A DNA stretch of 64,000 bases. Source: Qipengyuania intermedia. GTDB lineage: Bacteria > Pseudomonadota > Alphaproteobacteria > Sphingomonadales > Sphingomonadaceae. The number at the start of each line of letters is the position of its first letter. Position 1 is the first letter of the stretch. The position numbers and the translations under genes were made by a program. The DNA is taken from assembly GCF_019711615.1 (NCBI RefSeq), contig NZ_JAIGNS010000002.1, forward strand, positions 669,501 to 733,500, read 5' to 3'. Under the pieces are notes generated by a model. That model worked only from the letters and a program-made list of their open reading frames with translations, searched no databases and had not been told where the DNA came from. Below are positions 4,365-44,450 of the stretch, in pieces.

Positions 4365-5601
4365 TGACGGCATCGACGTCGGCGAGTTCGCCGACATCGG
4401 CCAGCGGATCTCCGCTGACGGCAATCATGTCGCCCCAGGCGCCGGGCTTGATCACGCCGACTTCGCCTTCCTGACCCAGCGCCTCTGCAGCCGTAACCGT
4501 GGCGGCCCGGATAGCTTCGAGCGGGGTCATGCCGTATTCGACCATGACGCGGAACTGACCGCCGACCAGCTCGTGCGGCATGACGGCGGCATCGCTGGCG
4601 AACACCATCTTCACGCCTGCTTCGTGCGCGCGGCGGAAATTGTCGCGCTGCGCCTGGCTTAGTGCGCGTTCCTTGGCGATGTTCTCTTCCAGCACACCGT
4701 TCGCGGCGCCCTGAGAGAGGGTGTATTCGGTGTTGAAGATATCCATCGAGAAGAAGGTGCCGCGTTCCTTGGCCAGACGGATGGCTTCATCATCGGCATA
4801 GCTGGCGTGTTCGATGGTATCGAAGCCGGCCCGGATCGCAGCCTTGATCCCGGGTGCACCGTGGGCATGGGCGGCGGCCTTCAAGCCCCAGAAATGCGCT
4901 TCGTCGGCAATTGCGGTCAGCTCTTCCAAGGTCAGTTGCTGGATACCGGGCGCGGTGTTGCGGCTGAAGACGCCGCCCGTGGCGCAGGCCTTGATGACTT
5001 CGGCGCCGTATTTGCGCTGCTCCCGCACGCGCTTGCGCAATTCGTCGGGGCTGTCGCCCACGGCGGGACTTTTTGCATCGAAGCTGGGGGGCAGGAACGT
5101 CTCGTCGCAATGTCCGCCGGTCGCGCCGAGCGAATGATTGGCGACGACGATGCGCGGACCGATGATCCAGCCTTCCTCGATCGCCTGGTCGATACCGATC
5201 ACGTTGTAGTCGTCATCGCCGACATTGCGCACGGTGGTGAAGCCAATTTCCAGCATGGTGCGGGCATTGGCGACGCCGACTGCGGTCCAGAACCGGTCGG
5301 TGAACTGCAGTCCCGAATAGCCGCCGTATTCCGGGCGACCGTCGAGGTGGACGTGCATGTCGATGAGGCCGGGCAGCAGCGTGTGACCGGCCAGATCGAT
5401 ATGCTTCGCACCGTCGGGAAGCGTGACGCCGGATTGCACGCTCGCCACCTTGCCATCGACCACGGTCACGACCGGATCGGCCAGATAACGCCCGGTCTCC
5501 ACATCAAGCATCCGGTCTGCCGTCACCACTACCGTTTCCGCAAGTGCGGGCGAGGCTGTGAGAGACACGATGGCGGCGGCGGCCAGCAGGACAGGCTTCA
5601 T
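4339..5601 (-). CDS. Secreted amidohydrolase (imidazolonepropionase-like)
   Basis: 420-residue metal-dependent amidohydrolase. An N-terminal signal peptide (KPVLLAAAAIVSLTASPALA) precedes the small beta-domain, then the TIM barrel with HxH in LIDMHVHLDG, a probable carbamylated Lys in EVIKACATGG, His in KAAAHAHGAPG and IEHASYAD, and the catalytic Asp in MVFASDAAVMPHE. The resemblance is to periplasmic Xaa-Pro dipeptidase/imidazolonepropionase-like hydrolases. The substrate cannot be read from sequence, though peptide or small cyclic amides are plausible. Start chosen at 5601 because AAGGGGAA precedes it and the signal peptide begins there; the open frame extends to 5757 without support. Confidence 0.87.
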   Translation of the reverse strand: MKPVLLAAAAIVSLTASPALAETVVVTADRMLDVETGRYLADPVVTVVDGKVASVQSGVTLPDGAKHIDLAGHTLLPGLIDMHVHLDGRPEYGGYSGLQFTDRFWTAVGVANARTMLEIGFTTVRNVGDDDYNVIGIDQAIEEGWIIGPRIVVANHSLGATGGHCDETFLPPSFDAKSPAVGDSPDELRKRVREQRKYGAEVIKACATGGVFSRNTAPGIQQLTLEELTAIADEAHFWGLKAAAHAHGAPGIKAAIRAGFDTIEHASYADDEAIRLAKERGTFFSMDIFNTEYTLSQGAANGVLEENIAKERALSQAQRDNFRRAHEAGVKMVFASDAAVMPHELVGGQFRVMVEYGMTPLEAIRAATVTAAEALGQEGEVGVIKPGAWGDMIAVSGDPLADVGELADVDAVIKGGVLVE

Positions 5602-5753
5602 TGTCAAATTCCCCTTGTTGCGGCGCTCCCCGGCCGCCCGCTTTTCATACAGGATGCGGGCGGGGAGGGAAGTGCGGCTTTTCGACCGGTTTCCCGGTGG
5701 CTTGCTGGCGTTTTTTCGGCCGGAATTGGAAGAGCGGACGGCGCGGGACGATC

Positions 5754-6128
5754 TCATTCATAGCTGACCACCTCGAACTCGATCCCGTCCCAGTCGAAGA
5801 AGTAGAAGGTACGCGGGCCGGGCTCGTATTTTCCGTGGCTGAAAGGTTCGAGACCGTGCTTCACCACGATGACCTCCGCCGCATCGAGATCGTCGACCAT
5901 GAAGGCGATGTGGTTGAGCGGCTGGCCCTTGCGATAATCGCCGACGACAGCCTCGCTGGTATAGAGCGAGACGTAATTGTCCTCGCCGCCAACATGGATC
6001 GTCCGGCCGTTCCCCATGGAAGGTCCGCTCCAGCGTTCGTGCCAGCCGAGCAGGTCCTTGAGCAGGGCGGCACTGCGATCCGGATCGGTGACGGAAATAT
6101 TGGCGTGTTCGAGACGTCCTTTTGGCAT
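5754..6128 (-). CDS. VOC/glyoxalase-family protein, predicted SoxR target
   Basis: 124-residue vicinal oxygen chelate protein with two beta-alpha-beta modules: GRLEHANISVTDPDRSAALL with a metal-ligand His, then LNHIAFMVDDLDAAEVIV and DWDGIEFEVVSYE with a terminal Glu ligand. Family members are glyoxalase I, fosfomycin resistance or dioxygenase-type enzymes; which applies here is unknown. The start at 6128 has a perfect AAGGAG ribosome site. It is divergent from soxR, and a SoxR box sits between the -35 and -10 of its promoter. This suggests induction by redox-cycling compounds and a role in detoxifying a reactive electrophile. Confidence 0.86.
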   Translation of the reverse strand: MPKGRLEHANISVTDPDRSAALLKDLLGWHERWSGPSMGNGRTIHVGGEDNYVSLYTSEAVVGDYRKGQPLNHIAFMVDDLDAAEVIVVKHGLEPFSHGKYEPGPRTFYFFDWDGIEFEVVSYE

Positions 6129-6185
6129 CGCTAAACTCCTTGTGTTCGATGCGGCACCGGGATGGTCCGCAAATGCGATGCACAC

Positions 6186-6216
6186 TCAATGCAACCTCAA
6201 GCTTAGTTGAGGTCAA
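6186..6216 (-). promoter_or_regulatory. SoxR box within promoter of the VOC gene
   Basis: Reading the minus strand there is TTGACC (6211-6216), then a 19-bp spacer, then CATTGA (6186-6191). The 18-bp element at 6195-6212 reads CCTCAAGCTTAGTTGAGG: 6-bp inverted arms CCTCAA/TTGAGG around six bases. It closely resembles the known E. coli soxS operator, and the overlong 19-bp spacer is the geometry MerR-family activators such as SoxR untwist. The -10 is weak. The same site could also affect soxR itself. Confidence 0.82.
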
Positions 6217-6243
6217 GCTTCGTTTTCGCTATCGCTGTGATCG

Positions 6244-6681
6244 ATGAAATCGAACGACCTCCTTCCCATCGGTGAACTGGCCCGCCGGACCGGCCTCAGC
6301 GTGTCGGCAATTCGGTTCTACGAAGAGCGTGGGCTGGTCGAAGCGCTGCGCACAAGCGGAAACCAGCGCCGCTTCCTGCGCGGCGATATCCGGCGGTTGA
6401 GCTTCATTCTGATTGCGCAGCGATTGGGGCTGTCACTGGCGGAAATCGAGGAGGCGCTCGTCGGCCTGCCACAAGGACGCACGCCCAACGCCGCCGACTG
6501 GAAACGCATCAGCGGCTCGATCCGCAAACGCATCGAAGACCAGATCGCCTCGCTCGAAAAGATGCGCGATAGCCTGGATGGGTGCATCGGCTGCGGTTGC
6601 CTTAGCCTGAAAAAATGTGCGCTTTACAATGCCGATGACAAATGGGGCGAAAGCGGCGCGGGGCCGCGCGTGCTGCGGTGA
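6244..6681 (+). CDS. soxR: Redox-sensing regulator SoxR
   Basis: 145-residue MerR-family activator. N-terminal winged helix with IGELARRTGLSVSAIRFYEE, a dimerisation helix, and the [2Fe-2S]-binding motif C-x2-C-x-C-x5-C at Cys114, 117, 119 and 125 (CIGCGCLSLKKC), which defines SoxR among MerR proteins. Oxidation of the cluster by redox-cycling agents switches on target promoters. In non-enteric bacteria SoxR usually controls a few detoxification or efflux genes directly rather than soxS. The divergent VOC gene with its SoxR box fits that pattern. Confidence 0.96.
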   Translation: MKSNDLLPIGELARRTGLSVSAIRFYEERGLVEALRTSGNQRRFLRGDIRRLSFILIAQRLGLSLAEIEEALVGLPQGRTPNAADWKRISGSIRKRIEDQIASLEKMRDSLDGCIGCGCLSLKKCALYNADDKWGESGAGPRVLR

Positions 6682-6785: not shown

Positions 6786-7631
6786 ATGCCTTACAAGCAC
6801 GCTCACTATTTCGTTGGTTTCGTTCTGCTAGTGACACTCGCAGGTTTTTGGGCGAGCTATTTCACGCAAATCAATGGCGTTCCGCTCGCGTTTCACGTTC
6901 ACGCGTTTACCGCGACGAGTTGGCTCCTGCTCGTCATCCTGCAAAGCATGTCGATACATAAGGGGCATGCTGCGCTTCATAAGCTGACCGGCAAGGCGAG
7001 CTTCGCGCTTTTTCCTCTCCTGATTCTCGGTTTCGTGATGATCATCAACGTAACGGCGGAGCGCTTCGCATCGCAGGAGAGTCCGTTTATCGCTCTGTTG
7101 GGACCGGCTTTTGGAACTGGCATGGCCATCGCCATTGCCGCATATCTAACGCTATTTTATCTCGCGCTTCGGCATCGCCGGAATATCAAGCTGCATGCGG
7201 GATACATGCTTGCAACGCCTCTGATTTTGTTTGAGTCGCCCTTTAGTCGAATTATCGACCAGTTCCTTCCGTGGATGAACTTTATTGGTAGCGAGGGGCC
7301 GCGCCAAGTCCTCGATGCGATCGCCATCAGCGACATGCTCGTAGCTGCGTTCGCGATTACCATTTACCTCCGAGATCGGAAAAATGGTGCGCCTTGGCTA
7401 GTCGCAACGTTTTTTGTCCTCATGCAAGCTGCGGTCATGTGGCTGGCGCCAGACATCCAATTCCTGCGAGCATTTTTCGAAGCCTACGCCCGGCTCCCGC
7501 AGGAGCTGACGATGGCGTTCGGTCTCCTTGCTGGCGCGATTGTTGGTTACCTTGGTTGGACGAGAGGAGTGAGCCGAGGAGGGAAAACGGCAAAAGGCAC
7601 TGGGATCAGCGCGTCCAAAGCTCTTCCCTGA
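6786..7631 (+). CDS. Unrecognised multi-pass membrane protein
   Basis: 281 residues with about seven hydrophobic segments, for example YFVGFVLLVTLAGFWASYF, ATSWLLLVILQSM, FALFPLLILGFVMIINV and TGMAIAIAAYLTLFYLALR. Histidines recur near membrane edges (HAHYF, FHVHAF, HKGHAALHK, RRNIKLHAGYM), which could be haem or metal ligands, but I do not recognise a named family with confidence. A GGGGGAGG ribosome site lies 5 bp before the start. Its codon choice is visibly less GC-rich than that of its neighbours, hinting at a different origin. It ends 21 bp from a convergent gene. Confidence 0.7.
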   Translation: MPYKHAHYFVGFVLLVTLAGFWASYFTQINGVPLAFHVHAFTATSWLLLVILQSMSIHKGHAALHKLTGKASFALFPLLILGFVMIINVTAERFASQESPFIALLGPAFGTGMAIAIAAYLTLFYLALRHRRNIKLHAGYMLATPLILFESPFSRIIDQFLPWMNFIGSEGPRQVLDAIAISDMLVAAFAITIYLRDRKNGAPWLVATFFVLMQAAVMWLAPDIQFLRAFFEAYARLPQELTMAFGLLAGAIVGYLGWTRGVSRGGKTAKGTGISASKALP

Positions 7632-7652
7632 CCTCAAGATCTAGGCGCTTGG

Positions 7653-8054
7653 TCACAGATCGGGGTATACCGCGCAAAGCTCGTCGAAACCTTCCGACTG
7701 CAGGTTGGCCCGCATGGTCCCGCTCGGCTCTTCCCACACGGTATCCGGGGCATTGCGCGCTGCGCAGAGGGCGTAGCGCACTTCCGGGTAATCGCTGAAG
7801 GCTTCAGGCTTCGGAAGGCCCCTAACTTCCAGGCTTCGATTGCTGGAATCGGAACGCATCACGCCAAGCAAATCGGCCTCCGGCCCTTCCACGATAAAGC
7901 TTCCATCGGCGGTCTCGGTGACTTCGGTTTCGACGTCGAGCTGGAAAGCGAACCAGATACTCACGATCAGAGTGAGGATGCCAAGGACCGCGATTCCCTT
8001 GATGAATCTCTCGATCCGGCGGGTTTCCTTCTGGGGGATTTCATCGTCGGTCAT
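7653..8054 (-). CDS. Hypothetical single-pass membrane protein
   Basis: 133 residues: a short charged cytosolic N-terminus (TDDEIPQKETRRIERFIKG), one membrane segment (IAVLGILTLIVSIWFAFQL), then an approximately 90-residue exported domain with two cysteines (YALCAARNA and DELCAVYPDL) that could form a disulfide. I do not recognise the family. It follows sixA on the same strand with an 18-bp gap, so dinG-sixA-this gene may form one transcription unit. Confidence 0.65.
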   Translation of the reverse strand: MTDDEIPQKETRRIERFIKGIAVLGILTLIVSIWFAFQLDVETEVTETADGSFIVEGPEADLLGVMRSDSSNRSLEVRGLPKPEAFSDYPEVRYALCAARNAPDTVWEEPSGTMRANLQSEGFDELCAVYPDL

Positions 8055-8072
8055 GTCGTCGATCCCGAATCT

Positions 8073-8600
8073 TCAATATTCCGGGCCCAGTTCCGCGTCG
8101 AGATCGCGGGGGCGGGCGAAGTGGACCAGCTTGCCGCAGCCTTCGGAAAGCTCCGACCAGTCGTCGATATCGAGTTCGAACACCGCGAAAGCGGCGGTGG
8201 GAAATTTGACCTTGGCTTCGTCGAAGAGGTCGTTCTCGTTCTTGGGCGCAACCAGTTCGAAAACCATGTCGCCGAAGCCCGGATTATGCCCGGCCAGCAG
8301 CAGAGTGTCGGCATCGCCGCCCATCTCGCTCGCCACTTCGCAGATCGTTTCGGTGGAGGCGAGGTAGAGGCGACGGTCCCATTCGGGTTCGGGCCCTATG
8401 GCGGCTTCTTGCAGCGTGAGCTTGACGCGTTCGGCAGGGCTGGCGACCAACCGGTCCCATTTGACCCCGTGATCGCGGATGTGTTCCCCGATCAGCCGTG
8501 CACCCTTGCGGCCGCGATCGTTCAGTCCCCGGTCGAAATCGCGCTTGTCGCTCTGCCCCCAATCGGACTTGGCGTGACGCAAAAGGCCGAGGATTTTCAC
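8073..8600 (-). CDS. sixA: Histidine phosphatase, SixA family
   Basis: 175-residue member of the histidine phosphatase (phosphoglycerate mutase-like) superfamily. The catalytic RH is in LGLLRHAKSDWG at the N-terminus, the second Arg lies in VASPAERVKLTLQEA, and the second catalytic His in LLLAGHNPGFGD. Family members such as SixA remove phosphate from phosphohistidine in phosphorelay proteins. Bacterial relatives of this subgroup are often only called phosphohistidine phosphatase-like. The start overlaps the stop of the helicase gene by 4 bp (ATGA), so translation is probably coupled. Confidence 0.88.
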   Translation of the reverse strand: MKILGLLRHAKSDWGQSDKRDFDRGLNDRGRKGARLIGEHIRDHGVKWDRLVASPAERVKLTLQEAAIGPEPEWDRRLYLASTETICEVASEMGGDADTLLLAGHNPGFGDMVFELVAPKNENDLFDEAKVKFPTAAFAVFELDIDDWSELSEGCGKLVHFARPRDLDAELGPEY

Positions 8601-11338
8601 GAGTCTTGTTTCTCCGCTGGGGGGTTCCCAACCTCTCCAACACCCTTCGCCACGCGCTGTAAAGCCTCGTCGAGGGTTACGCGCAGAACTGGCGTGCCGT
8701 CGGGGAAGGCGGACAGCAATCTGCTGGGGAAGGCGGAGGACAGGACGACGAAGTGTCCTGCATCGTCGCGGCTGCGGATCAGGCGACCGAATGCCTGTGC
8801 CAGCCGCGCGCGGATGATACGGTCGTCATAGCGTTTGGCACCGCCTTCCTGTTCGGACGCCGCCGCGCGGCGGGCACGATGGAGGATGGTCGGGCGGGGC
8901 CAGGGGACGGCTTCCATGACCACGCAGCGTAGCGATTCCCCAGGCACGTCGACCCCGTCGCGCAGGGCGTCGGTGCCAAGCAGGCTGGCGCGCGGATCGT
9001 CGCGGAAAATGTCGGTCAGTGTGCCGGTGTCGATCGGATCGACGTGCTGCGCGTAGAGCGGCAGGCCCGCGCGCGCCAGGCGGTCGGCAATCCGTCCGTA
9101 GACCGCGCGCATGCGCCGGATCGCGGTAAAGAGGCCGAGCACGCCGCCATCGCTCGCTTCGATCAGCCTGGCGTAGGCTCCGGCGAGGGCGGGGATATCG
9201 CCACGCTTGATGTCGGTGACGATGAGGACTTCGGCCCGCGACGCATAATCGAATGGGCTGTCCGATTGCGCGGTCTTCGGCATCAGTTCGAGATGCGGCG
9301 CGCCGCTCTTTGCGATGGCGTGTGGCCAGTCCGCGCCGCTCTCGTCACGGTCGGTCAGGGTTGCGCTGGTGAGCATGACGCCATGCGCAGGCTCCAGCAC
9401 GGTATGGGCGAAGGGCTTCATCGGATCGAGCCAGTGGCGGTAGAGCCCGACATCGAATTCGCGTGCATCGTTTCGGTCGACTGCCAGCCAGTCCACGAAA
9501 TCGGGATCTGCCGGACCGCCGAGGCGCGATAACAAGGCTTCCCAAGCGGCAATCAGGTCGATGCGCCATGCAAGCGAATGGCGCGCGCCCTCGATCCGCG
9601 CGCGGCCCTGGCCGTCGAGCCAGTCGGGCGCGTCCTCCAGCACGGCTTCCAGCCTTCCGGCAAGTTTCAGCAAGGGTGTGCGAATAGCGGCGAGCGCCTG
9701 CGCGGCGGTCCCCGCAGCCTCTACCAGTTCGCCGGGAAGCTGTGCAGTCTCGGTCTCGATACCGTAGCCTGCCTCCTGCCCGCTTTCGTCGCGCGCATAT
9801 GTGGTAGCCCGAACCTGCGCGAGCAGGGCTTCGACCGGACCGAAGGGCGTTCCTTCCGCAAGTCGTCCCAGCCAGCCCTCGGAAGGGAGGGCCTGCGCTG
9901 CCTCTACCGCAGCTTCCACCGCTTCGCCGCCTGCATCGTCATAGCTGGCCACGTCGGCAAGGCGAGCGGCAAGACCGCGGCGCCTTCCGCGCGAATTGCG
10001 TTCGGGGCCGATGATCCAGCGCCGCAGCTCGATCGCCTCCTGCCCTGTCAATGCGGCGGAGAAGGTGGAATCGGCAGCGTCGAAAACGTGATGGCCCTCG
10101 TCGAAGACGATGCGCGTCGGGCGGCTGGCGAGATCGCGCCCCCGCGCCGCGTTCACCATGACGAGAGCGTGGTTGGCGATTACGAGATCGGCCTGCGCTG
10201 CATTCCTGGCACTCCGCTCGATGAAGCACTTCCGGTAATGGGGGCAGCCGGCATAAACGCATTCGCCGCGCTGGTCGGTCAGTGCCGCAATCCCGCGCTT
10301 CCGGAAGAGCGTGCCGAGCCAGCCGGGCAGGTCCCCGCCGATCATGTCGCCGTCCTGCGTATAGGCCGCCCAGCGCGCCACCAGCTGCGCCAGGATCGCG
10401 GGCCGTCCGGTGAAGCCGCCTTGCAGCGCGTCTTCAAGGTTGAGCAGGCAGAGGTAATTCTCGCGCCCCTTGCGCACGACCACCGGCGGCGAGCCATCGG
10501 CGCGGGTTGCCGGCCATGCGCGCGCGCTCTCGCGGCGCAGCTGGCGCTGGAGGTTCTTGGTATAGGTGCTGACCCACACCGTCCCGCCCGATCGTTCCGC
10601 CCACAGCGATGCCGGGGCGAGATAGCCCAGCGTCTTGCCGATCCCGGTGCCCGCCTGGGCCAGCAGCACATGGGGCCGTTTCTGCCTGTCGCGCGGCCCG
10701 AAGACGTGACCGGCTCCGCGCGAGAAAAGGCGCTGGCCCTCGCGCCGTTCTGCCCCCTCGCCGGTCAGGCGTTCCAGCTGTGCCTCTATCTCGGGCTCGT
10801 CGATCAGGACCTGCGCAGGTTGCGGCCGATCTGGCGTTTCCTCCCACTCCGGCAGCTTGGTAAAGAGCCACTTCTCCGCCTTTTCCGGCTTGCGCACATG
10901 GGGGGCGAGGACATTGGCCCAAGGCCAGCGCAGGCGGGCGAGCGATTGCAGCGTCGACCATGCGCCCTCGCGCTCGGCCCAGTCGTCGCTCTCGCAGGTG
11001 GCCACCAGTGCGCTAGCTGCTTTCTGCAACAGCAGCGGCACATCGGCGTCGTCTGCCGGTTCTTCGAGGCCGAGCGCGTCGGCAAGGCCCTTGGGCGTGG
11101 GAACGCAGAATTTCGCCGGGTGGATGAAGGCAAACAGTTCCAGCAGGTCGAGGCCGGAAAGGTCGGGATAGCCCAGCCTGCTGGCGACCAGCGGCGCGTT
11201 CATCATCAGGAGCGGCGTATCCGCCGCCGCCATCACCGCCTCGCCCTTGGAGCAGCCGCGGGTGGAGCCGTTGGCATCGCGCAGCCAGGTTCCGGCGTGG
11301 CTGGCGTGGAGGGCAGGGAGGGGCAGCGGCTCGCTCAC
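8597..11338 (-). CDS. DinG/XPD-like ATP-dependent DNA helicase
   Basis: 913-residue superfamily 2 helicase of the DinG/Rad3 type. Walker A is in LAQAGTGIGKTLGYLAPA, the Fe-S cluster cysteines are in YLCLLNLED and CVYAGCPHYRKCFIE, and the Walker B box is DEGH in IVFDEGHHVFDA. C-terminal motifs include LTSATLTDRD and QAFGRLIRSRDDAGHF. It is longer than E. coli DinG because of a roughly 200-residue N-terminal region, a form seen in alphaproteobacteria. The family unwinds 5'-3' and clears R-loops or damaged structures. The start is a GTG; an ATG 35 codons in is an alternative. It is coupled to sixA downstream. Confidence 0.9.
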   Translation of the reverse strand: MSEPLPLPALHASHAGTWLRDANGSTRGCSKGEAVMAAADTPLLMMNAPLVASRLGYPDLSGLDLLELFAFIHPAKFCVPTPKGLADALGLEEPADDADVPLLLQKAASALVATCESDDWAEREGAWSTLQSLARLRWPWANVLAPHVRKPEKAEKWLFTKLPEWEETPDRPQPAQVLIDEPEIEAQLERLTGEGAERREGQRLFSRGAGHVFGPRDRQKRPHVLLAQAGTGIGKTLGYLAPASLWAERSGGTVWVSTYTKNLQRQLRRESARAWPATRADGSPPVVVRKGRENYLCLLNLEDALQGGFTGRPAILAQLVARWAAYTQDGDMIGGDLPGWLGTLFRKRGIAALTDQRGECVYAGCPHYRKCFIERSARNAAQADLVIANHALVMVNAARGRDLASRPTRIVFDEGHHVFDAADSTFSAALTGQEAIELRRWIIGPERNSRGRRRGLAARLADVASYDDAGGEAVEAAVEAAQALPSEGWLGRLAEGTPFGPVEALLAQVRATTYARDESGQEAGYGIETETAQLPGELVEAAGTAAQALAAIRTPLLKLAGRLEAVLEDAPDWLDGQGRARIEGARHSLAWRIDLIAAWEALLSRLGGPADPDFVDWLAVDRNDAREFDVGLYRHWLDPMKPFAHTVLEPAHGVMLTSATLTDRDESGADWPHAIAKSGAPHLELMPKTAQSDSPFDYASRAEVLIVTDIKRGDIPALAGAYARLIEASDGGVLGLFTAIRRMRAVYGRIADRLARAGLPLYAQHVDPIDTGTLTDIFRDDPRASLLGTDALRDGVDVPGESLRCVVMEAVPWPRPTILHRARRAAASEQEGGAKRYDDRIIRARLAQAFGRLIRSRDDAGHFVVLSSAFPSRLLSAFPDGTPVLRVTLDEALQRVAKGVGEVGNPPAEKQDS

Positions 11339-11401
11339 TCCCTGCCGTTAGAACACAAAAGGAACGCGGGGCAAGCGCCCAGCTGACCATTTTGCCGGCC
11401 G

Positions 11402-12610
11402 CTATGCGGCTATCGACAGCTCCGACGCGGCTAGTGCCTGTTCGAGGTCGGCGAAGATGTCCTCAGCCTCCTCCAGGCCGACCGACAGGCGCAGCAAGCC
11501 TTCGCCGATGCCGTGTTCCGCGCGCTCTTCGGGCGTGTAGGTGGAGTGGGTCATCGACGCGGGATGCTGGATCAGCGTTTCCGCATCGCCCAGCGACACG
11601 GCGCGGATGATCATCTCCAGCCGGTTCATGAACCGGATGCCCTGGTCGTACCCGCCAGCAAGATCGAAAGCGATCATGCCGCCCGCCAGCGCCATCTGGC
11701 GTTTGGCTAGCGCATGCTGGCCGAAGCTTTCGAGGCCCGGATAGTGGACGGCTGCGACTTGCGGCTGCGCTTCCAGCCAGCGTGCCACTTCCATGGCGGT
11801 CCTGCTGTGGCGTTCCATCCGCAAGGCCAGCGTCTTGAGGCCACGCATGATCAGCGTGGCGCTAAACGGACTCATCACCGCGCCGGTCATGTCCTTCAGC
11901 CCTTCGAGGCGCACCTTCTGCATGGTTTCGGCAGAGCCTGCGACCAGCCCGCCGACAAGGTCGCCGTGCCCGCCGAGATACTTGGTCGCGGAATGCACGA
12001 CGATGTCCGCACCCAGTTCGATCGGCCGGGTGAGGGCAGGGGTCGCGTAGGTGTTGTCGACCACGACCTGCGCATCGTAGCGATGCGCCACCTCGCTGAT
12101 CGCGGCAATGTCGACCAGCCGCATGTTCGGGTTCGCCGGAGTTTCGAAGTAGACAACCTTTACACCCCCATGCATCGCCGCCTCGAGCGCACTCGGATCG
12201 GTCAGGTCGACATGGGTCACTTTCACGCCGAATTTGGCAAGGCCGTGGCGGAAGAAGGCGAAGGTGCAGCCGTAAAGTGTCTTGTCGGTGACGATTTCAT
12301 CACCCGCTTCCAGCAGGCTCCACATGACGGCGGTAATCGCCCCCATGCCCGATGCGGCGGCGACACCGGCTTCCGCGCCTTCGAGAACGGCGAGGCGCTG
12401 TTCCAGCAGGTCAACCGTCGGGTTGCCGATGCGCGAATAGAAATAGCCGGGCTCTTCACCGGCAAAAATCGCGCCGCCCTGTTCCGCGCTCTCGAAAGCG
12501 AAGGTCGATGCAAGATGCATCGGCGGCGTCAGCGCGCCCTGGTTTTCGGCGGGGTCGTACCCGTGATGGATGGCGCGGCTGGAAAAACCGGAAAGCGTGG
12601 TGCGGGACAT
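11402..12610 (-). CDS. megL: Methionine gamma-lyase
   Basis: 402-residue PLP enzyme of the Cys/Met metabolism family. Residues follow methionine gamma-lyase closely: Tyr58 and Arg60 (YFYSRIGNPT) for PLP phosphate from the neighbouring subunit, Tyr113 and Cys115 in KTLYGCTFAFF (the cysteine is diagnostic of methionine gamma-lyase, Cys116 in Pseudomonas putida), and Lys210 in HSATKYLGGHGD for the Schiff base. The reaction gives methanethiol, ammonia and 2-oxobutyrate from methionine. Start at 12610 is preceded by GAGAGG. It is divergent from an Lrp-type gene, as in the P. putida mdeR-mdeA arrangement, so methionine-responsive control is likely. Confidence 0.92.
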   Translation of the reverse strand: MSRTTLSGFSSRAIHHGYDPAENQGALTPPMHLASTFAFESAEQGGAIFAGEEPGYFYSRIGNPTVDLLEQRLAVLEGAEAGVAAASGMGAITAVMWSLLEAGDEIVTDKTLYGCTFAFFRHGLAKFGVKVTHVDLTDPSALEAAMHGGVKVVYFETPANPNMRLVDIAAISEVAHRYDAQVVVDNTYATPALTRPIELGADIVVHSATKYLGGHGDLVGGLVAGSAETMQKVRLEGLKDMTGAVMSPFSATLIMRGLKTLALRMERHSRTAMEVARWLEAQPQVAAVHYPGLESFGQHALAKRQMALAGGMIAFDLAGGYDQGIRFMNRLEMIIRAVSLGDAETLIQHPASMTHSTYTPEERAEHGIGEGLLRLSVGLEEAEDIFADLEQALAASELSIAA

Positions 12611-42127: not shown

Positions 42128-42135
42128 ATAATATG
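42128..42135. repeat. Target-site duplication, left copy
   Basis: ATAATATG, identical to 44443-44450, immediately outside the left terminal inverted repeat. An 8-bp duplication is the expected size for the IS1595 family. Confidence 0.92.
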
Positions 42136-42164
42136 GGCAATTGTATACTTTAGTTAGCAGCCCA
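42136..42164 (+). repeat. Left terminal inverted repeat of IS1595 element
   Basis: Begins GGCAATTGTATACTTTAG and ends AGCAGCCCA; matches the reverse complement of 44414-44442 at 26 of 29 positions, with differences at positions 8, 18 and 25. Confidence 0.93.
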
Positions 42165-42182
42165 TGATTCGGAGTTTGGAAA

Positions 42183-42353
42183 GTGGCTCGGTCATCCGAT
42201 AGCAAAGAAACCAATGAGGTTATAGAGGTCACGCCTGAGATGGTGGAGGCGGGGCTAGAGTTGTATTCGGAAATGGCGTGGCACGACCCGCGAAGTCCGG
42301 CTTCACCTAGGGAGTTGGTGGAGGCCCTTCTTCGTCTCCGTAAAGATATGTAA
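42183..42353 (+). CDS. Small passenger protein, 56 aa
   Basis: GTG-started 57-codon frame inside the IS element, with GGAGTTTGG as a possible ribosome site 5-10 bp upstream. The product is acidic and helical: VARSSDSKETNEVIEVTPEM, then VEAGLELYSEMAWHDPRSPA and RELVEALLRLRKDM. The VTPEM-VEAG-L pattern resembles short uncharacterised proteins of alphaproteobacteria and their phages. It is convergent with the 190-residue ORF and overlaps its end by 47 bp. Function unknown; coding status is likely but unproven because of its size. Confidence 0.6.
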   Translation: MARSSDSKETNEVIEVTPEMVEAGLELYSEMAWHDPRSPASPRELVEALLRLRKDM

Positions 42354-42879
42354 ATAGGTCGCCCAGCTCGCCGTGGAGAATTCCAAGGTTACGCCTTTCT
42401 TTTTGAATACGAGTCACAAGTGCCTTTACGTCGCCTAGAGTTTGGAACTCCGTAATACTGCGAAGGTCGACCTTGACCTCCCCCGAACCCTTGACCCTCT
42501 TCACGGTGGTGCCCTTCTTTAGTCGCATGAAGCGCTCGCCAGCGACATACCAAAGGTCGTGAATGTATCGGTTTCGATCGTTCCTCAGTTCGTTTCCGAT
42601 GAAATTTAGGGTCTTGTCGGCGCGGCCTCTAAAATCAGTGTCGGTCTCGACATAACGGGTCAGGGCCTTTGCGATCTGGATGTTCGTTCTCAGATCCACG
42701 TTGGCATCCACGGCAAGAAGGAACTTTCCAAACCCCTGATCCTGCATCAGATGTTTAGATTGGACGTTTGTCAGGGCTATGATTAGGCTTGCTACATCAT
42801 CCTCGAGCCATGCCCATTCGTAGACAACTTGCCCAAGCGCGGCGTAGAGGGCGTTATAGGTAGCGGAGTTTTCATCCAT
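42307..42879 (-). CDS. IS passenger protein with HEPN-like RxxxxH motif
   Basis: 190-residue helical protein starting MDENSATYNALYAALGQVVY. Features are EWAWLEDDVASLIIALTNVQ, then GNELRNDRNRYIHDLWYVAG and a basic region LKKGTTVKRVKGSGEVKVDL. The R-N-R-Y-I-H hexamer fits the R-x4-H core of HEPN domains, many of which are toxins or ribonucleases, and the W-x-x-LE helix before it is common in such proteins. Similarity is by motif only. It lies inside the IS1595 element, is lower in GC than the chromosome, and its ATG is back to back with that of the 48-residue ORF at 42878. A TTG at 42888 is an alternative start. Confidence 0.72.
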   Translation of the reverse strand: MDENSATYNALYAALGQVVYEWAWLEDDVASLIIALTNVQSKHLMQDQGFGKFLLAVDANVDLRTNIQIAKALTRYVETDTDFRGRADKTLNFIGNELRNDRNRYIHDLWYVAGERFMRLKKGTTVKRVKGSGEVKVDLRSITEFQTLGDVKALVTRIQKERRNLGILHGELGDLFTYLYGDEEGPPPTP

Positions 42880-43024
42880 GGAAGACAATGAAACCTATTC
42901 CGAAGAGGAAACCAAAGCGCGGCGCGAGGCCGCACTAAAGCGGATGCTGGCAACGCCGCACAAGCCGCATAAGAAGGGGCAGGCCGAAGCCCGCCCCAAC
43001 CGTTCACGCAAGAAGCCAGACTAA
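42878..43024 (+). CDS. Small passenger protein, 48 aa
   Basis: 49-codon frame starting with ATG at 42878, directly divergent from and overlapping the start of the 190-residue ORF. The product is acidic at the start (MEDNETYSEEETKARREAAL) and then basic with ALKRMLATPHKPHKKGQAEA and RSRKKPD. The ALKRML-TP-xPHK pattern resembles a widespread class of short alphaproteobacterial proteins of unknown function, which supports it being real. A back-to-back arrangement with a putative HEPN-like protein is reminiscent of small regulator/toxin pairs, but they are on opposite strands and no interaction is known. Confidence 0.58.
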   Translation: MEDNETYSEEETKARREAALKRMLATPHKPHKKGQAEARPNRSRKKPD

Positions 43025-43469
43025 AGCCCAAGCAATTGGCCAGAGGCACTTTGCTAGGTTGATCTGAACGACCATTGTTACCGTGGTCTTGGTTTTCATT
43101 ACTGATCCCCAAGGCCGCAAGCGCTCGCAGCCTAAGAGGCAAACGAAGAAGCTTCTGGTGCAACCACTGAGGCAAGGTTGCGAGCAATCTCCCCACCATT
43201 CACGGTCGCGAGCCGATCATGGTAGCGGTAATGTGGAGTCCAACGCCAAGCTCGGCGGCAGCGATTGCGGCACCGCCGCTAGTGGTGGCCCGGCACAGCC
43301 GGGTCCAAAACGCCCGTTTAGGTTGGTTGGCATTACCATGCACCTTCCGGCATGTTCGGGTATCCGCCCCGAATGCTTTCCGATGCCCTTGGATGGTGGG
43401 GCAAAATTTTATCGGAGTCGAGTCCAACGCTTACGGCGCTCACCAATCTGGCGGGGTGCTACGACCTTC
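43025..43469. other. Gene-poor segment inside the IS element
   Basis: 445 bp between the 48-residue ORF and the transposase stop. I see no convincing gene. A 31-residue minus-strand frame (43004-43099; KTKTTVTMVVQINLAKCLWP then a hydrophobic tail) could be a tiny membrane peptide, and a 75-codon TTG-started minus frame (43200-43427) has no ribosome site or recognisable product. The stretch may hold a regulatory RNA or decayed cargo. Confidence 0.5.
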
Positions 43470-44378
43470 TTAGGCGGCGAGACGATTAGTCCGCCGATAA
43501 GTAAGGCGACGCCCAAAACCACCCTTAATGATTTCGCCTGCGCGTTCCGCATCGCTCATGTCGCGAGTGCTGGCGCGTAAATCGAACTCGGCAAGGTAGC
43601 GGTGAAGGTGAGCCTCGCTAAGGTGGTGGTAGGTGCCGACCACACCGCGCTTGAAAATCGAAAAGAAGTTCTCAGCGCTGTTAGAGTGGAACATGCCTTC
43701 CGCGTAGATCGCTGCGCGGTGGTTTACGGCATGATGCGAGGTAAACTCCTTGCCTACGCTGATGTAGCCCTTGTGCTCATCGGTCATGAGGCTGGATGCA
43801 CGGTCAACGTTCTGGACCAGCACACCGCGAAGGGTGTTGGCGTGGACGTTGGCAACATGGAACGAACGCGAGGCCCCGCCACGCTCCACTAGGGAGACGA
43901 CGATCTGCTTCTTGGGGACAGGACCCCAGGCGCGGTTTTTGGCCTTGCCGCCTACATAGGTTTCATCTGCTTCGACGATCTGGCCAGCGCCACCAATTGG
44001 ACCGTCGCCATTGGCACCGTCCATGGCTTCACGAATGCGATGGCAAAGGAACCACGCAGTCTTGTAGCTGACGCCGATCATGCGGCCCATCTGAGCGGCG
44101 CTCATGCCCTTCTTGGAGGCGGCCATGATGTGCGTAGCAAGCAACCACTTGTTCAAGGGAACGTGGCTGCGCTCCATGACGGTGCCGGTGCGGACAGTGA
44201 ACTTGTCGCGGCAGTCATTGCAAAGGAACATTCCGGCCTGCGTCTTACCCTTCATGCGGTGGACGTTGTCCGAACCACAATGGGGACAAACTGGTTCGCC
44301 ACCCCAACGCGTTTCTTCGATGTGCGCCTCTGCCTTGGCAGCGTCATGGAAAATGGGGTTGGTGATGTCGATATTCAT
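43470..44378 (-). CDS. IS1595-family transposase
   Basis: 302 residues, full length for the family. The N-terminal zinc ribbon has VCPHCGSDNVHRMKGKT and FLCNDCRDKFTVRTGT, then a helix-turn-helix region (KGMSAAQMGRMIGVSYKTAW) and the ISXO2-like catalytic domain: first Asp in VEADETYVGGKAKN, second Asp in LMTDEHKGYISVG, and the DDN/E-type third motif in FHSNSAENFFSIFKRGVVG. It moves the element by cut-and-paste transposition. No frameshift or stop is seen, so it is probably active. Its start is 64 bp from the right end of the element. Confidence 0.95.
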   Translation of the reverse strand: MNIDITNPIFHDAAKAEAHIEETRWGGEPVCPHCGSDNVHRMKGKTQAGMFLCNDCRDKFTVRTGTVMERSHVPLNKWLLATHIMAASKKGMSAAQMGRMIGVSYKTAWFLCHRIREAMDGANGDGPIGGAGQIVEADETYVGGKAKNRAWGPVPKKQIVVSLVERGGASRSFHVANVHANTLRGVLVQNVDRASSLMTDEHKGYISVGKEFTSHHAVNHRAAIYAEGMFHSNSAENFFSIFKRGVVGTYHHLSEAHLHRYLAEFDLRASTRDMSDAERAGEIIKGGFGRRLTYRRTNRLAA

Positions 44379-44413
44379 GGCGGTTTCCTTGCTTACCCAT
44401 CTTATGACAGATG

Positions 44414-44442
44414 TGGACTGCTAAGTAAAGTATATAATTGCC
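44414..44442 (-). repeat. Right terminal inverted repeat of IS1595 element
   Basis: On the minus strand begins GGCAATTATATACTTTAC and ends AGCAGTCCA; 26 of 29 positions match the left end at 42136-42164. Confidence 0.93.
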
Positions 44443-44450
44443 ATAATATG
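44443..44450. repeat. Target-site duplication, right copy
   Basis: ATAATATG, a perfect copy of 42128-42135, directly outside the right end of the element. Confidence 0.92.

Follow-up and report, generated by a model that had tools for sequence, protein, structure and literature searches.

A constant carrier and a putatively exchangeable cargo slot in a probable transporter insertion sequence of the IS1595 family from Qipengyuania intermedia

Comparison of a complete IS1595-family element from Qipengyuania intermedia with its relatives suggests that this putative transporter insertion sequence (tIS) probably combines a constant carrier with an exchangeable cargo slot, which we describe together with a model of recombination, expression and defence or addiction. 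At the level of sequence, the element is an insertion with a target-site duplication (TSD), a start codon is shared by two divergent genes, homology between relatives ends at a sharp border, and the cargo is decoupled from the transposase. Because relatives hold different passengers, often joined at the same start codon, the element looks like a cargo-swapping vehicle. Passenger genes are already known for IS1595; a slot of this kind was not found in the published literature searched.

The element and its lineage

In the window (the 64,000-nucleotide stretch of contig NZ_JAIGNS010000002.1 analysed here), a first-pass annotation made from the letters alone had described a complete 2,307-bp IS1595-type element with 29-bp inverted ends, a perfect 8-bp duplication, three extra ORFs and a 445-bp gene-poor stretch, all of which were borne out (Table 1). 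The terminal repeats are complementary at 26/29 positions (90%), as claimed, and ATAATATG stands at both flanks, so that terminal inverted repeats and an 8-bp target duplication, as expected of a member of the IS1595 family with its seven named subgroups, are both present. The transposase matches NCBIfam transpos_IS1595 (NF033547) at 184.9 bits (cut-off 75), the Pfam IS1595 DDE domain (DDE_Tnp_IS1595, PF12762) at 108.3 bits (cut-off 27) and, at its N-terminus, Zn_ribbon_IS1595 (PF12760) at 44.4 bits (cut-off 25.4), a zinc ribbon which, in the excerpt of PMC8101967, defines the family except for the IS1016 group.

The empty site, proposed as a check by the same annotation, is intact: when the flanks were joined at a single ATAATATG, one blastn match spanned the junction in 24/24 loci (68–83% identity). 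These were the best other loci, all in congeneric genomes, from a search in which the downstream flank had a match in 59 of 60 genomes. One such site (L310) reads ...CTAACCGAAAATATGCAAGC.... Because it is uninterrupted in all 24 genus loci, the element in the window is an insertion; the opposite possibility raised by the annotation, that the cargo is native to this locus in relatives, proved negative in these loci. The element is present in one copy in its own genome. Searched against plasmids, it gave 38 records, each covering at most 27% of the query with matches confined to the transposase part, and an Rfam search over its whole length gave two matches, both well under the gathering score. 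The gene-poor stretch is 87% identical to that of L058 over 173 bp, with shorter matches in other relatives.

A total of 121 non-redundant relatives, mostly alphaproteobacterial, were delimited with perfect 8-bp duplications and terminal repeats; the same search with the downstream part of the 121 loci shuffled found none (0/121), which rules out chance. They measure 1,824–4,324 bp, and not one is a bare insertion sequence. The idea that passengers are peculiar to this clade was dropped: among 20 IS1595 outgroup loci fetched (30–38% identical), 12 have recognisable ends by a looser end-finder (8/200 in its shuffled null), and 11 of these 12 exceed 1.7 kb. The earlier claim that the window element carries passengers is supported. 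Beyond what the letters alone could show, the third ORF alone is exchangeable and the two tiny ORFs (tiny1 and tiny2) are conserved parts of the lineage.

Table 1. Features of the element, in positions of the window
Feature	Positions	Strand	Basis
Target-site duplication, left copy, ATAATATG	42128..42135		sequence and script check
Complete IS1595-family element, 2,307 bp	42136..44442		ends, duplication, empty site
Terminal inverted repeat, cargo end	42136..42164	+	29 nt
tiny2, 56-aa ORF, GTG start, VTPEMVEAG core	42183..42353	+	family in 41/121 elements
Cargo gene; HEPN-like product of 190 aa when started at the ATG of the shared CATG	42307..42879	-	ORF, alignment, model
Codons of R102-N-R-Y-I-H107, HEPN-type Rx4H motif	42559..42576	-	alignment and sequence
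CATG with both start codons (tiny1 +, cargo -); constant/variable border	42877..42880		comparisons across lineage
tiny1, 48-aa ORF with RREAALKRMLATPHKPHK core	42878..43024	+	family in 103/121 elements
Terminator-like hairpin GGGGCGGGCTTCGGCCTGCCCC, then TTCTTAT	42976..42997	-	inside 3' part of tiny1
No evident gene, 445 bp between transposase and tiny1	43025..43469		ORF list, comparison with relatives
IS1595-family transposase, 302 aa, open throughout	43470..44378	-	profile matches
Terminal inverted repeat, transposase end	44414..44442	-	29 nt
Target-site duplication, right copy, ATAATATG	44443..44450		sequence and script check

The shared start codon and the border of homology

In 68 of the 103 elements with tiny1, this gene and the divergent cargo start within one CATG, as compared with 90 of 1,315 nearby minus-strand ATGs in a local null (which replaced a looser null, 203/1,513, that counts internal methionines). 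The 35 elements lacking a shared start are divergent with separate starts (18) or have the cargo on the tiny1 strand (17). Because an additional in-frame ATG or GTG lies upstream in 32 of 67 cargo ORFs, we infer the CATG to be the true cargo start from the homology break; the longest form of the window cargo ORF (193 aa) begins at a TTG at 42888.

This break was located in 135 pairs of shared-start elements with transposases at least 70% identical and cargos of different clusters. In 94 pairs, collinear homology extends past the CATG or stops at most 60 bp short of it; in these it ends at a median of 0 relative to the last CATG base (exactly 0 in 29/94, between -12 and +6 in 72%); 41 pairs have no collinear homology near the CATG, and any match within the cargo was found in 4/135. 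In a typical pair with differing cargo, homology stops at the CATG and resumes at the terminal repeat. Thus L072 and L162, which are separate insertions because their TSDs differ, are 93.8% identical over positions 1–1653 (1,653 bp, CATG at 1649–1652) and beyond that share the last 24 bp alone; with L183/L188 included, DNA identity is 93.8–95% up to the CATG and none past it. The right-hand homology spans 24–34 bp at the terminal repeat in most of 13 closely read pairs. Two pairs, L214/L219 and L171/L172, differ in the non-coding gap too, which has been exchanged along with the cargo, and crossovers would therefore also fall upstream.

Cargo is decoupled from the transposase, and its difference among relatives with near-identical transposases speaks for a tIS carrying genes not directly involved in transposition. 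For transposases at least 90% identical (12 pairs, not all independent), a cargo BLASTP match was found in one, and the fraction of pairs with cargo of the same cluster is 0.17, 0.31, 0.25, 0.27, 0.20 and 0.13 across transposase identity bins from at least 90% down to 40–50%. The window element and L057, with transposases 81% identical, carry HEPN-like and HNH-like cargo, respectively. Tandem arrangements also occur: L064 consists of two whole elements, and L133 is an array of the form TSD-(tnp-tiny1-HNH-like cargo)-TSD-(tiny1-cargo with RNDIVH)-TSD, its two tiny1 copies being 94.5% alike over 110 bp. The latter, with two cargo modules and one transposase, is plausibly an exchange intermediate. 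No exchange event was caught within one strain lineage, and we infer recombination from the mosaics.

Cargo proteins, small conserved proteins and the terminator

HEPN superfamily RNases are characterized, in the excerpt of PMC3710099, by an Rx4-6H motif with a polar residue after R, located at a helix end, and by an N-terminal helix in which an acidic residue is conserved. The window cargo has such a motif, whose R and H are invariant in 35 aligned cargo proteins; in an AF2 model (pLDDT 84.9) helix 81–107 ends at H107, and a glutamate of the N-terminal helix is nearly invariant among cargo relatives. The first-pass description of the 193-aa ORF as HEPN-like therefore holds at the motif level, but in contrast to known HEPN RNases the protein has no profile match, and a fold search did not confirm HEPN. 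Indeed, Foldseek with two HEPN-like models retrieved no solved structure (PDB) at E ≤ 0.001 and none among viral structures (best A0A4Y5TZQ9, E 0.0046); a sequence search of solved structures with the window cargo gave 11 matches (E 0.02–0.92), none of them HEPN. The window cargo has no match in Pfam, NCBIfam or PADLOC, and hence none to a defence model, with two in PHROGs at E 0.13 and 0.29. Its 35 aligned relatives yielded one match each to HEPN_RiboL-PSP (8.8e-6), HEPN_Cthe2314 (0.012) and HEPN_AbiU2 (0.021), plus weak matches to unrelated families, and the 121 cargos include profile matches to DUF4145 (4), HEPN (1) and MtlR (1). The HEPN-type motif R[ND]xxxH is found in 60/121 cargos, the other half being devoid of it, and in 42/68 shared-start cargos (shuffles: mean 3.0, maximum 8); 46 cargos form one loose HEPN-like cluster. 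We regard the HEPN-like cargo as a predicted RNase. The window cargo occurs in 3/396 genomes order-wide, its own included, with no tblastn match in plasmids and none in genome contigs by peptide patterns.

A Pfam scan of the 121 main cargo ORFs matched 23 families, naming few cargos; recombinase and integrase families are absent among them. Defence-family matches, some to known and some to candidate families, concern a minority of cargos: PADLOC PD-Lambda-5_A in at least 3/121 among the matches listed (25 of 120 models; L086, E 3e-178), and, among 10 cargos scanned singly, PDC-S46 (in L148, E 5e-255), a type II methyltransferase (MTase_II, in L275), PDC-M24B and NsnA/PD-T4-2-like matches.

The tiny1 family (signature EDEVLKRMLxTPPKPHK), normally one per element, lies opposite the transposase in 100 of 103 elements; a model rebuilt from A1 alone recovered 102 elements and nothing in reversed sequences. 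Codon-position entropies of 0.77/0.70/1.45 (30 cores) indicate coding, upon which the notion of mere antisense noise was dropped; judged by this substitution pattern, tiny1 is a real protein. Its identity follows that of the transposase weakly (Spearman 0.153, Mantel null maximum 0.122), with medians of 0.78, 0.59, 0.42, 0.35, 0.32 and 0.32 from the bin of at least 90% down to 40–50%. No tiny1 was detected in 18/121 elements, whose ends and TSD are nonetheless intact; five of these have an R[ND]xxxH cargo, and two of the five (L250, L297) belong to the main HEPN-like cluster. Conversely, tiny1 occurs away from a transposase in 8/19 loci of a class-wide search and in seven weaker order-wide loci (L135–L141); at L075 it overlaps at the start with a HEPN-like gene, and there is neither a transposase nor recognisable terminal repeats. 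Pfam gave five single matches for 33 tiny1 rows (best E 0.011, unrelated families), and the tiny ORFs of the window matched nothing in Pfam, NCBIfam, PADLOC or PHROGs. The tiny2 family (EITPEMIEAG) lies opposite the transposase in 41/41 elements, its model match starting 34–62 bp from the far end in 30 of them; in the window, it overlaps the cargo gene tail to tail at the cargo 3' end.

The hairpin inside tiny1 reads from the transposase towards the cargo and separates the two genes. Such terminators pass in 31/67 shared-start elements (shuffles: mean 2.0, maximum 3; other strand 1/67) and fail in 36/67, by a test that replaced an earlier, too weak version (53/67, shuffles mean 31). No promoter could be assigned.

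Proposed model, alternatives and related systems

In the model we favour, the constant carrier would comprise the two terminal repeats, the transposase, often a cargo-facing terminator, and tiny1, which commonly has its start codon in common with the divergent cargo; roughly one element in three also has tiny2 at the far end, pointing into the element. The variable slot would begin at the shared CATG and extend in the direction of the far repeat. We take tiny1 to be probably a regulator, acting on the cargo or on transposition, and less likely a partner reserved for one toxin. Two elements inserted side by side may recombine in shared transposase or tiny1 DNA (and the terminal repeat), pairing transposase A with cargo B. 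The terminator would halt transposase read-through and the DNA from there to the CATG would drive the cargo, so that any gene joined at the CATG would be expressed. The cargo, a HEPN-like predicted RNase in half of the elements, may earn its place through phage defence or addiction. A bolder version, which we put forward tentatively and with more doubt than belief, is a minimal platform for gene capture: tiny1, together with its antisense strand, would form a general acceptor, packing terminator, promoter and start codon into about 120 bp, at whose CATG unrelated, in many cases immune-type, genes are joined, tiny1 being a cargo-independent control protein. If true, a 2.3-kb transposon would shuffle single-gene defences through alphaproteobacteria without an integrase or integron.

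Several other explanations bear on the same observations. A toxin-antitoxin arrangement, with a HEPN RNase toxin and tiny1 as a promiscuous antitoxin making the element addictive, would suit the frequent adjacency and shared start of the two genes, their persistence at L075, the HEPN toxin also described in a Tn3-family transposon (excerpt of PMC7157771) and the existence of hyperpromiscuous antitoxin domains (excerpt of PMC10440598). We consider it unlikely: tiny1 also stands beside HNH-like, DUF3800, PD-Lambda-5 and GmrSD-like cargos, motif-bearing cargos occur where no tiny1 was detected, and type II pairs, which the same excerpt of PMC10440598 gives as bicistronic operons, consist of two genes with a cognate partner, whereas tiny1 and cargo are divergent and start-overlapping, with tiny1 constant across unrelated cargos. 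Rather unlikely, too, is a role for tiny1 and tiny2 confined to assisting or regulating transposition and unconnected with the cargo, the shared start being compaction only; tiny1 identity does drop with transposase identity, and one tiny1 per element is the rule, but the shared start is far above its local rate, intact ends and TSD also occur where tiny1 was not detected, and L075 retains tiny1 and cargo with no transposase.

As to how cargo is swapped, a specialised reaction at the CATG and terminal repeat, either site-specific or linked to the transposase, instead of homologous recombination, would account for the exact borders and the short right-hand homology. It appears quite improbable in view of the upstream crossovers in L214/L219 and L171/L172 and of the absence of recombinases among the 23 Pfam families matched by the main cargo ORFs; crossovers anywhere in tiny1 or the transposase would give the same picture, because the CATG is simply where homology ends. 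The view that nothing is exchanged and cargo just evolves very fast in a fixed place, to which the loose HEPN-like cluster might point, deserves almost no credence: L072/L162 and L183/L188 refute it as a general account, and the HNH-like versus HEPN-like cargos of L057 and the window also speak against it.

To our knowledge, passengers of small transposons tend to be recorded singly. Here, a whole lineage is available with a slot border often readable to the base, which makes testable (i) the way in which cargo is changed in a small transposon, (ii) whether two divergent genes both use a single CATG and (iii) whether the unknown ORFs that occupy slots of this kind have immune functions. Together, the tiny1 signature and the CATG also provide a simple means of collecting cargo genes, half of which here are HEPN-like by motif.

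The defining paper for tIS is reportedly Siguier 2009. Integron gene cassettes can likewise be exchanged and are expressed from a platform that stays constant; in the window lineage, by contrast, the main cargo ORFs include no integrase family, a start codon forms the border and a slot normally holds one cargo. Tn7-like transposons are larger and have several transposition proteins, whereas the elements of this lineage are mostly 2–3 kb with usually one main cargo gene. Nearly all Tn7-like transposons resemble them in carrying cargo, with defence genes enriched (excerpt of PMC8649781). In Tn3-family transposons, toxin-type genes, HEPN included, similarly occupy a favoured place beside the transposition genes and are repeatedly acquired and exchanged between transposons; there, according to the excerpt of PMC7157771, whole toxin-antitoxin pairs sit beside res sites, while in the present lineage the tiny gene stays constant and the partner with which it has a start codon in common changes. 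Finally, IS1595 tIS (ISNha5 group, tISCpe8, MTnSag1) share the transposase, the 8-bp duplication and passenger genes (excerpts of PMC11891212 and PMC5704250); the window lineage differs from them in its conserved tiny1 and tiny2, its directional terminator, a slot often opening at a shared start codon, and cargos of which half are HEPN-like.

The element, its relatives and their distribution

The complete IS1595-type element proposed in the first-pass annotation is borne out: it measures 2,307 bp (42136-44442), has inverted ends matching at 26/29 positions and ATAATATG duplicated on either side, and encodes a 302-aa IS1595 transposase in an open frame on the minus strand. It is present as a single copy in its own genome, and the empty site that the annotation had suggested looking for exists in other genomes of the genus, where the flanks fused at one ATAATATG align as a single match across the junction in 24/24 fetched loci (25 were kept, one being the window's own). 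According to two papers (PMC11891212, PMC5704250), IS1595 elements with passenger genes are already known; among the open-licence papers listed for IS1595 together with passengers, cargo, HEPN or defence, none was recognised as describing the exchangeable cargo slot analyzed here.

Transposase searches yielded matches (E ≤ 0.001, distant IS1595 counted in) in 130 of 396 genomes of the order, at least 544 relatives in 84,980 species genomes and 510 relatives in IMG/VR, from which the best 80 of the at least 544 and the best 80 of the 510 were used. A script requiring a perfect 8-bp target-site duplication (TSD) and matching inverted ends, applied to 223 loci, delimited 128 elements, or 121 once near-copies were removed (35 from viral contigs, 50 from named genomes and 36 from other loci); it left out 86 transposase matches with ends not recognisable to it. 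All 121 are 1,824-4,324 bp long, and with the downstream half of the loci shuffled the finder recovered 0/121; cargo is therefore the rule among the delimited elements of this clade. Cargo carriage extends beyond the clade as well. Looser finder settings (shuffled null 8/200) revealed recognisable ends in 12/20 fetched outgroup loci with transposases ~30-38% identical, one of them (L371) a bare IS of 1,150 bp.

Several additional observations concern distribution. In the distant IS1595 set of the order (L353-L372, ~30-38% identity), 11/20 loci combine ends, 0.8-2 kb of cargo and different terminal repeats. The 80 named loci (best 80 of at least 544) are, by record title, alphaproteobacterial nearly throughout, the odd ones being one Patescibacteria and one Prosthecobacter MAG, and many IMG/VR relatives (L229-L308) lie on viral-classed contigs, the source of 35 of the delimited elements. 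An IS1595 transposase is recurrent on Pseudosulfitobacter pseudonitzschiae plasmids (30 plasmid records); on one of these (L128), tiny1 was not found, and short hypothetical ORFs adjoin the transposase. A 29-bp, 93% match to window 43164-43192 is located at 7331-7359 of L093 (G033), a locus where transposase and tiny1 were both looked for and neither was found.

Features of the window element and of two relatives with matched cargo (positions in the window or in the named locus)
Feature	Position	Orientation	Description
TSD	flanking 42136-44442, both sides		ATAATATG
tiny1	42878-43024	opposite transposase	48-aa ORF, conserved family
tiny2	42183-42353	opposite transposase	conserved family
Shared CATG	42877-42880	both strands	start of tiny1 and cargo
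Terminator-like hairpin	42997-42976	reads transposase to cargo	inside tiny1
L148 cargo	7566-9761		candidate defence family PDC-S46, match nearly whole length
L086 cargo	5024-6403		PD-Lambda-5_A; L201 and L261 in same cluster

A cargo slot bordered by the shared CATG

Relatives of tiny1 are found in 103/121 elements, in 100 of them opposite the transposase strand, and remain undetected in 18/121; detection is partly circular, the model having been trained on these same elements, and a model rebuilt from A1 alone gave 102/121, with 0 matches in reversed sequences. In 68/103 tiny1 elements a single CATG opens both tiny1 and an opposite-strand ORF of at least 80 aa, the same test being passed locally by 90/1,315 neighbouring minus-strand ATGs. 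The exceptions comprise 18 divergent elements without a shared start and 17 with cargo on the tiny1 strand. One of the 17 is L086, in which the PD-Lambda-5_A gene and an ORF resembling (by eye) a D12-type methyltransferase are oriented towards tiny1.

Sequence information is high as far as the CATG and approximately zero beyond it (21 elements). Among 135 pairs with transposases at least 70% identical, shared starts and different cargo clusters, 94 have collinear homology that comes no less close to the CATG than 60 bp or runs past it. Relative to the last base of the CATG, the median end point of this homology is 0 bp, and in 29/94 it stops precisely there. In the clearest pair, L072 (G157) and L162 (uncultured Erythrobacter) are 93.8% identical over 1,653 bp, with the CATG (1649-1652) within, and past it have the last 24 bp alone in common, their TSDs being different; L183/L188 follow the same pattern. 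The non-coding gap differs too in L214/L219 and L171/L172, and therefore the exchange does not always start at the CATG. The window element and L057, with transposases 81% identical, carry a HEPN-like and an HNH-like cargo, respectively. Over 101 elements tiny1 identity drops, weakly, with transposase identity (Spearman 0.153, null maximum 0.122), while the same-cargo-cluster fraction has no comparably clear drop across transposase-identity bins (0.17, 0.31, 0.25, 0.27, 0.20 and 0.13, high to low).

Upstream of the CATG, a GC-rich hairpin followed by a T-rich stretch, directed from transposase to cargo, occurs in 31/67 shared-start elements vs. 2.0 expected (other strand, 1/67; three control stretches, 0-3/67). 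Such a hairpin would account for the fact that many tiny1 proteins end in a palindromic, proline-rich stretch. Given the hairpin, a cargo promoter would have to lie between it and the CATG; none could be assigned.

From the sequence arrangement we infer that recombination in tandem arrays would be the simplest route of cargo change. In L133 (G241 contig 93, 4723-7975) a single transposase is followed by two tandem modules, each with tiny1, cargo (HNH-like, then one with RNDIVH) and terminal repeat, and an identical 8 bp, AGCACCCT, stands at three places. Recombination between its tiny1 copies (94.5% identity over 110 bp) would lose the first cargo and bring the second behind the transposase. 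In L064 (G186, 7646-12588) two different elements, both complete, stand in tandem, and each of the three borders carries AAGAGGCG.

Cargo proteins

Loose clustering (single linkage, phmmer E<1e-4 within the set of 121) resolved the cargos into 49 clusters, the largest of 46, with the 68 shared-start cargos in 19. An R[ND]xxxH-type motif, described as a signature of HEPN RNases in the part available of PMC3710099, is present in 42/68 shared-start cargos (shuffles 3.0, maximum 8), 13/35 other tiny1 elements and 5/18 without tiny1 (total 60/121). In the window cargo R102 and H107 are invariant across 35 relatives, and helix 81-107 of its structure model (pLDDT 84.9) terminates at H107. The HEPN-like ORF of the first-pass annotation has the motif; comparison of this model and a second model (pLDDT 86.3) with solved structures gave no match at E ≤ 0.001, nor did the window protein match any protein family, and for these reasons it may be labelled only "HEPN-like". 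PD-Lambda-5_A is matched by three cargos; the available part of PMC9519451 describes PD-Lambda-5 as protecting against phages. Other cargo matches include PDC-S46, PDC-M24B, type II methyltransferase, GmrSD-like, DUF3800, HNH_5 (weak), SocA/Panacea and Trypsin_2.

Constant small ORFs

A tiny1 search of the same 396 genomes, independent of the transposase, gave 49 places, 37 of them strong (E ≤ 1.8e-8). Of the strong places, 34 adjoin a transposase match (judged by eye), and the remaining three are L129 with a transposase remnant, L130 with a remnant in an ORF (by eye, missed by tblastn) and L075 with none; among the 12 weaker places, the eight within L135-L141 are without a transposase match. 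When 240 genomes were sampled across the class, tiny1 (E ≤ 0.001) occurred in 20; of 19 newly fetched loci, 11 place an IS1595 transposase no more than 1.5 kb away and 8 have none. Hence, the link between tiny1 and these elements is strong in the order (34/37) and looser in the class (11/19). The third codon positions of tiny1 vary most (entropy 0.77/0.70/1.45 bits, 30 cores), which shows that the protein is under selection.

The tiny2 family is represented in 41/121 elements, all 41 opposite the transposase, with codon-position entropies of 0.36/0.21/1.2 (22 cores). The motif GGCCTGTC lies within the last 150 bp of 68/121 elements vs. 0/121 in a control stretch and coincides with the tiny2 start in several; elsewhere, in elements with tiny2 undetected, it may represent a tiny2 remnant.

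A separate observation concerns L075 (G209, 7967-9899), where the starts of tiny1 and of a HEPN-like gene overlap and a tiny2-like ORF is also present; transposase and terminal repeat were looked for at this locus and neither was found, and an ORF resembling (by eye) a Panacea/DUF4065 protein is situated in the neighbourhood.
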